From contig NZ_CP039250.1 of NCBI RefSeq assembly GCF_004795895.1, forward strand, positions 3,162,001-3,226,000: DNA of 64,000 nt, read 5' to 3'. Under the pieces are notes generated by a model. The model worked only from the letters and a program-made list of their open reading frames with translations, had not been told where the DNA came from and searched no databases. The DNA comes from Sphingopyxis sp. PAMC25046 (GTDB lineage Bacteria; Pseudomonadota; Alphaproteobacteria; Sphingomonadales; Sphingomonadaceae). This document shows, piece after piece, positions 151 to 50,287 of the stretch (its first letter is position 1; the number at the start of each line of letters is the position of its first letter). Both the position numbers and the translations under genes were made by a program.

Positions 151-418
151 TAGGGCATGAATCCGCATACGGCGCCGTCGAGGCGCCGAAATGGCGAAGA
201 TATCGGCTTCGCGTGGCCGCAGCGGACGGTGGTTCCGTCTGCAAGGCCGCGCGGAGACGAGATCGAAGCCATTTCGGCGTCCCTCCGGGATTTGACCGAT
301 TTTGTCCATGGCTGCGTCAGCGAGCCTTGGAATATACTCATATGCCTGCGTCTCGCTTCCTTGCCCTGAACAAAATCGCTTCAAACCTCGACGGTGCCGT
401 ATGCGGATTCATGCCCTA
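151..418 (-). mobile_element. MITE-like 268-bp inverted-repeat element, copy 1 (between gspK and gspL)
   Basis: The terminal inverted repeats start TAGGGCATGAATCCGCATAC and extend over 33 bp with one mismatch (151-183 against 418-386). Inside is a second perfect 12-bp inverted repeat (184-195 and 268-279), and a third pair CGATTTTG/CAAAATCG bounds a core of about 85 bp. The core aligns with the element at 50019-50287 when this copy is read on the minus strand, and the lengths are 268 and 269 bp. Both copies are flanked by TA, as expected for Tc1/IS630-type target duplication (inference). There is no coding capacity beyond frame shadows. Removing the element and one TA restores TAA-ATG between gspK and gspL. 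Confidence 0.75.
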
Positions 419-48972: not shown

Positions 48973-50021
48973 AGGCCTGGGCACGCCTTCTCGGCATCGC
49001 GGCGCTCACCGCGAGTGTGGCAGCATGCGGATCGAGTTCCGAACTCCGTCCGCTCACCGTCGTCGGCTGGGGCGGATCGTCGCAGGATGCGCACCGCAAG
49101 GCTTATTGGACCTCATTTTCGCGTACCACCGGCATTTCGCTGCGCGAGGATAGCTGGCGCGGCGGCGTCGGGGTGATCCGTACCAAGGTCGTCGGCGGAG
49201 ACGCGAGCTGGGACATCGTGCAGGTGGAGACCGAGGATCTGATCCTCGGCTGCGAGGAAGGGCTGTTCCAGCGGCTCGACTGGGCGGCCTTGGGCGGACG
49301 CGACGTCTTCCTGCCCGCCGCGGTACACGACTGCGGCGTCGGCGCGATGCTCTGGTCCTATGTCATCGGCTATGACGGCGACCGCATCAGCGGGCCGGGG
49401 CCGCAGAGCTGGGCCGACTTCTGGGACATCAAACGCTTTCCGGGCAAGCGCGGTATGCGCAAGACGCCCAAATATTCGCTCGAATTCGCACTGATGGCCG
49501 ACGGCGTGCCGGCCGATCAGGTCTATCCGACGCTACGCACGCCCGAGGGGATCGACCGCGCGTTCCGCAAGCTCGACGAGATCAAGCCGAACGTCGTCTG
49601 GTGGTCGTCGATTTCGCAGGTTCCCGACCTTCTCGGATCGCGCGAAGTGGTGATGTCGGTGACGAGCCCCGGGCGACTGATCGTCGCCAATCGCACCGAG
49701 GGACGCAACTTCAAGCTCGATTGGCACGGCAATATCTATGCAGTCGACTATTGGGTGATCCTCGCAAACAGCCCGCGCAAGGCCGAAGCGGCGCAGCTGC
49801 TCCGCTATATGACGCGCCCTGAAAACCAGATGCGACTGGCGAGCCATATCCCGACCGGCCTTACCAATGTCGAGGCGAACCGGCGCGTCGATGCGAAACT
49901 CAAGCTCGACACGCCAAGCGACCCGGCGAACATGGCCGACGCGCTCGAACTCGATGCCAATTTCTGGGTCGAATATGGCGACCAGCTCACCCAGCGGTTC
50001 AATGCCTGGGTCGCGCGCTAG
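48969..50021 (+). CDS. Polyamine-type ABC transporter substrate-binding lipoprotein (PotD-like)
   Basis: A 350-aa protein with lipobox VAAC (Cys 20). The mature protein starts LRPLTVVGWGGSSQDAHRKA, typical of PotD/PotF-like binders, and includes WDIVQVETEDL and VGAMLWSYVIGYDGD. The substrate could be a polyamine, an amino-acid derivative or a small peptide. The TAG stop uses the G of the adjacent inverted-repeat element; the pre-insertion gene probably ended in TAA. Confidence 0.88.
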   Translation: MKAWARLLGIAALTASVAACGSSSELRPLTVVGWGGSSQDAHRKAYWTSFSRTTGISLREDSWRGGVGVIRTKVVGGDASWDIVQVETEDLILGCEEGLFQRLDWAALGGRDVFLPAAVHDCGVGAMLWSYVIGYDGDRISGPGPQSWADFWDIKRFPGKRGMRKTPKYSLEFALMADGVPADQVYPTLRTPEGIDRAFRKLDEIKPNVVWWSSISQVPDLLGSREVVMSVTSPGRLIVANRTEGRNFKLDWHGNIYAVDYWVILANSPRKAEAAQLLRYMTRPENQMRLASHIPTGLTNVEANRRVDAKLKLDTPSDPANMADALELDANFWVEYGDQLTQRFNAWVAR

Positions 50022-50287
50022 AGCGGTTTTCGACCATTTCAGGTCGCCGTGACGGAGCCGATTTTGGCTCAGTGCAAGGAGAGATGGCGTAGGTATATGT
50101 CGATATTCCAAGACATCTCGACGCAGCAATGGGCCAAAATCGGCCCGCCGCGGAGCGGTTGGGCCAGGCAGTCCGCTGGCCGCGTTGCGTCGCTTGCAGG
50201 GGCGACCCGCCCCTGCCGCGCGCCGCGCCTCGCCAGCGAACTGCCTGGCCCAATCACGGTGATATGAAATGGCCGAAAACCGCTCTA
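50019..50287 (+). mobile_element. MITE-like 269-bp inverted-repeat element, copy 2 (inside the ABC operon)
   Basis: The terminal repeats start TAGAGCGGTTTTCG and match over 23 bp with one mismatch. An inner pair of 24-bp arms (50157-50180 and 50232-50255) has two mismatches, both G-U-type. The conserved core between CGATTTTG and CAAAATCG aligns with copy 1 at 151-418, although the terminal and inner arm sequences differ between copies. TA flanks both ends (50019-50020, 50286-50287). It overlaps the stop of the gene upstream and provides the start and first codons of the permease downstream. Confidence 0.78.

Follow-up and report, generated by a model that had tools for sequence, protein, structure and literature searches.

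Two short elements of near-equal length, each bounded by TA at both ends and each pairing end to end, are found in the window, that is, in the whole stretch of 64,000 nucleotides of the Sphingopyxis sp. PAMC25046 genome that was analysed. They raise the question of whether such an element is the remnant of a transposon or a nucleic acid that has been selected for its fold, and of what it does in the place where it sits. An earlier note on this DNA, made from its letters, had described the two elements and a core of about 85 bp common to them. Both elements are present, and the common core corresponds to one of two related hairpins in their interior, called here hairpin A (Table 1).

Parts, fold and selected strands of the element

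The element is comprised of two outer arms, which are its terminal inverted repeats, and an interior in which two inverted copies of a hairpin motif of about 95 nt, hairpins A and B, are each read inward from their own end, plus a small central hairpin. The RNA fold predicted for the element is a four-way junction of the outer stem, hairpin A, the small central hairpin and hairpin B. The folding energy is -165.3 kcal/mol for copy 1 (z -13.4) and -186.2 kcal/mol for copy 2 (z -16.1), and none of 200 shuffled sequences was equally stable in either case. Three models of the motif were used: R1, built on hairpin A; R2, for hairpin B; and R3, which is mainly a model of hairpin A.

Table 1. Coordinates of the two elements of the window and of their parts
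Feature	Position	Strand	Remarks
Copy 1, whole element, both TA copies included	151..418	(-)	between gspK and gspL
Copy 1, left outer arm (terminal inverted repeat)	386..418	(-)	the TAG stop of gspK comes from the arm
Copy 1, hairpin A, motif read inward	291..385	(-)	models R1 110.4 bits, R3 96.1 bits; covariation
Copy 1, central mini-hairpin TCCCGGAGGGA	280..290	(-)	fold and conserved pairs
Copy 1, hairpin B, same kind of motif, inward	184..279	(+)	model R2 104.8 bits; covariation; strand bias
Copy 1, right outer arm	151..183	(-)	1 base away from the gspL ATG
Copy 2, whole element	50019..50287	(+)	between a solute-binding-protein gene and an ABC permease gene
Copy 2, hairpin A	50052..50148	(+)	R1 87.2 bits, R3 84.7 bits
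Copy 2, hairpin B	50159..50253	(-)	R3 60 bits, E 6e-14
Copy 2, right outer arm	50254..50287	(+)	in-frame ATG at 50269 for the permease ORF

The stems of both hairpins covary. In hairpin A, 19 of the 35 pairs have changed on both sides among 60 sequences, and in hairpin B, aligned on the reverse strand, 26 of the 40 pairs have done so among 58 sequences; none of 500 shuffles reached either number. A distant set of 39 distinct sequences has 34 of 35 pairs doubly changed, a number that 1 of 500 shuffles reaches. The covariation score of this set is 0.983 in an alignment fitted to the model, as compared with 0.200 after shuffling (0 of 500 reach it) and at most 0.168 when the alignment is slid. 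All of the alignments A3 to A6 were fitted to the model structure, and the E-values of these home-made models are rough. Three rows of A3, kept in one covariation count and left out of a further analysis, and one row of A5 are hairpins on the wrong strand.

The internal loops are rich in purines and lie around AA/GCA, GA/GA and GCA/AA in hairpin A and at GAA/GAA, A/G and GC(A/C)/AA in hairpin B. In the motif as such, the conserved internal-loop purines are found around AGGA/GACG and GCAG/CAAG, and the stems covary freely. The unpaired positions of hairpin A that are conserved in at least 90% of the sequences are 7 G, 21 G, 26 A, 28 G, 29 A, 38 G, 48 G, 60 A, 70 G, 71 A, 73 G and 79 A; the remaining unpaired positions vary, and several of the loop purines are common to Sphingopyxis and other classes. 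In the Sphingopyxis alignments the mean conservation of unpaired positions is not above that of paired ones (0.81 versus 0.91 in hairpin A, 0.85 versus 0.85 in hairpin B) because the lower stems are conserved too. The motif combines covarying stems with conserved unpaired positions, the two properties by which a structured RNA is recognised. The GGA/GAC tandem mismatch of most hairpins is GGC/AAC in some (e.g. L342, L347 and L171-L173), an exchange that is a possible covarying non-canonical pair.

The strand on which a hairpin is selected can be read from its imperfect pairs. After a single transition a pair reads as G.U when one strand is considered and as A.C when the other is, and an excess of G.U marks the selected strand. 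Among 114 copies, hairpin A has 216 G.U versus 13 A.C pairs on the forward strand and hairpin B has 24 versus 378, hence 378 versus 24 on the reverse strand. The asymmetry keeps its sign in each subset and similarity class tried: in cluster representatives below 90% identity (26 copies; A 47 G.U versus 6 A.C, B 13 versus 87), in those below 85% identity (5 copies; A 7 versus 1, B 3 versus 17) and in the copies next to a start codon (A 37 versus 3, B 6 versus 84). An alternative count, in which the pairs of both hairpins were predicted on the forward strand, is weaker (A 220 G.U versus 20 A.C, B 206 versus 312); its B pairs include loop positions that are mispaired on that strand, and with 7 representatives the contrast in this count is gone (column test p 0.70). 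Since the excess of G.U is found on opposite strands for the two hairpins, the strand under selection is the forward one for A and the reverse one for B, each hairpin reading inward from its own end. The proposal that the element has been selected as a folded nucleic acid is upheld, but not in the form of a single folded strand.

The model matches indicate that hairpins A and B are homologous, since hairpin B of copy 2 is matched on the opposite strand by R3, the mainly-A model. Similarly, R1 also matches hairpin B, inward and on the opposite strand, in L181, L332, L180 and L335. An inward partner hairpin is found at E <=0.01 in 13 of 28 distant loci, 8 of the 28 being loci on which R3 had been trained.

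A pair of motifs related in this way need not be an RNA. The main rival explanation is that the hairpins are folded single-stranded DNA or cruciform transposon ends, recognised on the inward strand by a transposase or a host factor during excision or insertion, in which case the motif would be conserved for mobility and not for what it does to host transcripts. The symmetry between the two motif copies is indeed the two-fold one that transposon ends would have, the total length is nearly constant, and all similarity classes of copies show the same asymmetry. DNA, too, tolerates tandem purine mismatches and G.T pairs. However, differences of stability in DNA would suggest less than the excess of about 15 to 1 of G.U over A.C, and a U.G pair that predominates in hairpin A (54 of 60 sequences) looks RNA-like. 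Recognition as DNA ends is considered unlikely, and the insertion sequences described below bear on it further.

Distribution of the family and probable homogenisation of the outer arms

The genome to which the window belongs has at least 8 copies, found by DNA searches with both copies and by the hairpin-A model; the model search scored 150 of 3584 candidates, and the copy number is a lower bound. In the genus 52 of 60 genomes match, this one included, and S. alaskensis RB2256 has many copies of one repeat type. Within the family, R1 has matches in 54 of 249 genomes and 33 of 96 genera, again with this genome included; within the class it matches 10 of 337 genomes, of which 8 lie outside the family. 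R3, which was trained on loci found by R1, matches 94 of 398 genomes of Pseudomonadota: 9 belong to the family and 16 to other families of the class, and 69 lie outside the class. These are lower bounds, as the phylum search scored 10 candidates per genome, and the places were read as sequence for the fetched loci only. The relatives outside the class include Variovorax paradoxus (beta) and Vibrio campbellii and V. tritonius (gamma).

The shell of the element is also retained at these distances. Among 38 measured loci, a selection consisting of 14 from the wider family and 24 from outside it, terminal inverted repeats score at least 15 in 32 (in 20 of the 24 outside the family), and the length of these 32 is between 261 and 284 bp with a median of 268 bp. 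In a control, none of 210 random placements in 21 loci reached that repeat score, the maximum being 12. Many copies of about 268 bp with compensatory changes, which the earlier note had named as support for its reading, have been found. Two loci, L333 (G540) and L350 (G774), are occupied by shorter derivatives with hairpin A and without a typical hairpin B, in which the arms are 175 and 188 bp apart end to end and have low repeat scores. The genome G540, of 1.5 Mb, has six hairpin-A matches, and the A-only form may be mobile.

With copy 1 as the query, 6 plasmid records match (Novosphingobium, Sphingobium and Sphingopyxis); a plasmid search with two other element queries gave no match, nor did a search of phages for the element. 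The window has 0 matches to Rfam 15 at the gathering score, and permissive Rfam scans of sets of 4, 5 and 15 loci left the element itself without a match, so that a known Rfam family was rejected. A likeness of CCAAGG..GACGC to the bacterial SRP RNA was dropped because the strand order differs. No description of the element was recognised in the open-access literature searched, and it may be described elsewhere. One locus, L335, has a SAM_alpha riboswitch (RF00521, 71 bits) at 2111-2189 on the minus strand, which is unrelated to the element.

The outer arms behave differently from the interior. Arms of the commonest type are about 33 bp long, start with (T)AGGG and end with TCGAGG (117 aligned Sphingopyxis copies), and in the wider family the terminal repeats differ widely, as in TAGGGTCAGGACC, TAGGCCGTAAAC, TAGGGCCTGTTAAC and TATACCCAAGTGAC. 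The left and right arms of one copy are mismatched at a mean of 1.4 of 26 positions (114 of the 117 copies, leaving out L009, L010 and L011, the arms of which were misaligned by the column mapping), and the left arms of 93 different loci differ from each other at a mean of 9.1 of 26. The arms accordingly differ in sequence and stay palindromic in each copy, as had been observed in the two window copies. Their mismatches show little preference for G.U over A.C in the direction of transcription, with 40 G.U versus 34 A.C in copies read forward (67 copies) and 7 versus 7 in copies read in reverse (19 copies). Comparison of copies at the same locus (30 copy pairs) showed that the pair was kept by 72 two-sided changes and lost through 12, and that 63 changes were one-sided; repeats are counted here, and some copy pairs have one or neither flank clearly orthologous. 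Furthermore, the element is found in opposite orientations within the same flanks in L126 and L128, with identical arms, and L002 differs from L020 and L029 in the same way. Both cases are read as inversion of the element in situ.

The little G.U bias, the paired changes of the arms and the inversion in L126/L128 fit a homogenisation at the level of DNA better than selection on RNA. The outer arms look like a case of DNA-level concerted evolution. Recombination between the arms or template switching would keep them matched, and would also flip the element.

The same processes, replication template switching or recombination of inverted arms, might be thought to keep all of the palindromes perfect in the absence of any selection of the fold. 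The frequent pairwise changes of the arms at one locus, their lack of a marked G.U preference and the elements inverted within the same flanks are what such processes would leave. They would also be predicted to correct the internal loops and to treat both strands symmetrically; instead, several loop purines are shared across classes, and A and B show a strong asymmetry of opposite sign. Template switching or recombination is therefore accepted for the outer arms only and is disfavoured for the hairpins, and as an account of the whole element it is improbable.

A mobile family that targets TA

The element belongs to a mobile family that targets TA and has, for one repeat type, IS5-type ends. 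Terminal inverted repeats, the lack of a transposase gene and the multiple copies are those of a miniature inverted-repeat transposable element (MITE). Empty sites, which were to be looked for in close relatives, were found for both window copies. Among the gspK-gspL junctions of 30 genomes, the best 30 of 76 matching genomes, 27 are empty, two are occupied (in this genome and in G308) and one was not resolved. In the 27 empty junctions the place of copy 1 is taken by 2-3 nt. Without the element the sequence reads GAC-TAA-ATG (L293, L298), and with copy 1 it becomes GAC-TA|GGG...CCC|TA-AATG. At the site of copy 2, all 9 of the other orthologous junctions that were fetched are empty. Both window copies duplicate TA. 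In the family, TA is found at both ends in 22 of 29 copies that score below 200 bits to the query, in 17 of 39 at 200-240 bits and in 4 of 49 at >=240 bits; 32 of these last 49 have TA at neither end.

The TA at both ends had suggested Tc1/IS630-like mobilisation. It stands as an observation, as does the duplication of TA, but a TA target is not specific to the Tc1/IS630 group, and the terminal repeat of one copy group is common to an insertion sequence (IS) of the IS5 family. This IS, L129:3098-3943, is located in the same genome as the window and has TAGGGTCAGGAC ends, the same as that copy group; two ORF pieces in it match the IS5 transposase NF033580 with 110.1 bits (cut-off 110) and 69.4 bits. 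Because of the shared repeat, mobilisation looks IS5-type rather than Tc1/IS630-type, judging from the ends of one copy group, and a Tc1/IS630-like MITE is highly improbable. The reading frame of the L129 IS is in two pieces, and a small hairpin (TTCAGGC..GCCTGAA) lies inside its left end.

L129 is one of 13 partnerless places fetched after a search with the outer repeat alone in 11 genomes, and the transposase test was made on it alone among the 13. An IS-type left end is present in 7 of them (L129, L131, L135-L137, L139, L140), and the other 6 hold elements that are partial or run into the end of a contig. Insertion of the core into pre-existing palindromes is unsupported, as the outer repeat alone led to IS-type ends or to partial or cut elements. 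A second repeat type adjoins an IS5 transposase fragment in L282, a relation of proximity only. The ORF beside this fragment is presumably IS3-like, and the arrangement suggests one IS inside another. In L285 (G173:C8:306122-306178) a left and a right arm are almost adjacent without the core, in about 57 bp; this was seen once and is probably a deletion product.

Searches with R1 and R3, in which matches up to E 1 were admitted, did not find the hairpin motif in the L129 IS or in five further loci that have IS-type ends. The transposase of the IS that shares the repeat thus seems not to need the motif, which counts against the hairpins as DNA ends.

Bacterial MITEs as described in PMC10969869 are, like the present element, short, geneless and intergenic, with terminal inverted repeats, stable stem-loop transcripts and a target duplication that fades with age. 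That description lacks a conserved inverted pair of RNA motifs and strand-specific covariation; it also lacks the near-constant length across classes that the present element has. Chunjie, a MITE of 235 bp, lies in an operon of Geobacter uraniireducens (PMC10969869). The title cited for it there reads 'without disturbing the operon structure', and the text of the review has it disrupt one copy of the phosphate uptake operons. One species is named for Chunjie in that text, and its likeness to the present element is by description only. The Correia elements and QMITE2 (PMC10969869) are also MITEs that fold in transcripts and can affect mRNA. With the IS5 family (NCBIfam NF033580) the present element has in common the outer ~20 bp of one copy group and the TA target; unlike that family it has no transposase, and its motif was not found in the partner IS.

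Gene neighbourhood and possible role of the motif pair

Both window copies are located between co-directional genes, the identity of GspL being assigned on the G308 orthologue. The earlier note had placed the elements inside operons, in the orientation of transcription. This agrees with the genes beside the two window copies but does not extend to the family: the 37 Sphingopyxis loci that have long flanks comprise 21 co-directional, 10 divergent, 4 convergent and 2 undetermined sites, and for 24 wider-family loci the corresponding numbers are 9, 7, 7 and 1. Genes near the elements were called by a codon score, for which 25 long ORFs of the window served as the training set, and not from annotation.

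The position relative to stop and start codons is close and, at the right end, strongly oriented. In independent Sphingopyxis loci an upstream stop codon is found 0-3 nt from the end of the element in 28 forward and 16 reverse cases. A start codon is found -2 to +6 nt from the far (right) end in 21 forward versus 1 reverse case, at 7-30 nt in 22 versus 6 and at other distances in 11 versus 13. The 24 wider-family loci, a small sample, have close starts in 3 forward versus 0 reverse cases and co-directional sites in 6 versus 3. In the close-start class, Shine-Dalgarno-like pairing to the left of the element has a mean of -4.2 versus -2.2 in controls (p 3e-4; 28 versus 143 flanks, orthologues not collapsed), which is expected if the insertion split the Shine-Dalgarno sequence from the start codon. 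Copy 1 has this arrangement, with GAGGCGGAC on the left and ATG on the right. The permease ORF has gained a new N-terminus, MAENRS, which is encoded in frame by the right arm of copy 2; the sequence of L319 suggests that the permease once had a start codon overlapping the upstream gene and that the insertion parted it from this codon. For insertions within ORFs, a joined-flank test of the excised-intron idea gave candidates indistinguishable from adjacent genes that share a frame.

Resident copies could, on these grounds, be domesticated cis-regulators, i.e. leader RNAs of the genes that start at the right end. The forward bias of close starts, the Shine-Dalgarno-like sequence stronger than in controls and the conservation of copy 1 above its flanks would all be in keeping with such a role, and the close starts of the wider family are too few to judge. 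However, the sequences after the close start codons differ from locus to locus and no common target gene is evident, hairpin B is still antisense-selected in the start-adjacent copies, and the Shine-Dalgarno sequence on the left would be expected from the history of insertion alone. A role as leader RNAs is very unlikely.

Conservation of resident copies is uneven. Copy 1 and the copy in G308 are identical in 268 of 268 positions, as compared with 755 of 800 in the nearest 400 nt on each side; under the flank rate this identity has a probability of about 2e-7, for a single genome pair, and it may have come about through local exchange of DNA. Other same-locus groups are mixed, the core being above both flanks in many and not in several. 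Some resident copies decay; in hairpin A, 12 of the 25 unpaired positions differ between L067 and L030. Changes on a single side between same-locus copies, with repeats counted, keep the pair versus break it in 23 versus 28 cases in hairpin A and 88 versus 69 in hairpin B.

The explanation that we prefer, tentatively and at slightly less than an even chance, is that of a MITE-like element in which the inward pair of RNA motifs makes insertion tolerable and the arms are kept matched at the DNA level. The element would be a non-autonomous transposon of about 268 bp, the outer part of which is the terminal repeat used in trans by IS5-family transposases; to judge by the shared ends, such a transposase would insert it at TA. 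The interior would be the inverted pair of hairpin motifs and not a remnant of a transposase. From whichever side transcription enters, the first hairpin met would have the working orientation. The motif would act as RNA on read-through transcripts and would make an insertion between genes tolerable, especially at a stop/start junction, possibly by limiting polarity, or by folding out the insert so that translation of the next gene continues. Tolerable insertion would let the element persist and spread. Several findings count against this explanation. The decay of some resident copies, the mean conservation of unpaired positions and the weaker alternative count of mismatches are among them, as are the same-locus groups in which the core is not above both flanks. 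Moreover, the forward bias of close start codons is unexplained if A and B are equivalent, many copies are at divergent or convergent sites, where polarity is irrelevant, and the A-only derivatives imply that the two modules are not strictly needed. A broader proposal, that of a phylum-wide mobile RNA module in which an inverted pair of ~95-nt motifs in a shell of near-constant length swaps its terminal repeats to be carried by different insertion sequences, and acts on transcripts from both sides so as to insert without silencing its neighbours, is somewhat unlikely.

Structured RNAs that relieve termination in the passing transcript are known from processive antitermination, namely the put RNAs of phage HK022 and EAR. 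The likeness of the present motif to them is that of a structured RNA, by description, and the comparison consists of the Rfam scans. The usual view of MITEs is that of deletion derivatives in which the sequence between the ends has no function, and to our knowledge neither the Correia elements nor QMITE2, which differ from the present element in their ends and sizes, have a conserved internal pair of RNA motifs. In the present family it is the interior that is conserved, in Sphingopyxis as well as in Vibrio and Variovorax, and the terminal repeats vary. Whatever its function, the family is RNA-like and unrecognised by the Rfam scans, and it is a repeat to be masked or annotated in many genomes. 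If the motif protects the expression of the host, the element would be a transposon selected for harmlessness in either orientation, and its motif pair would be an orientation-independent RNA part that can be tested in a simple reporter.
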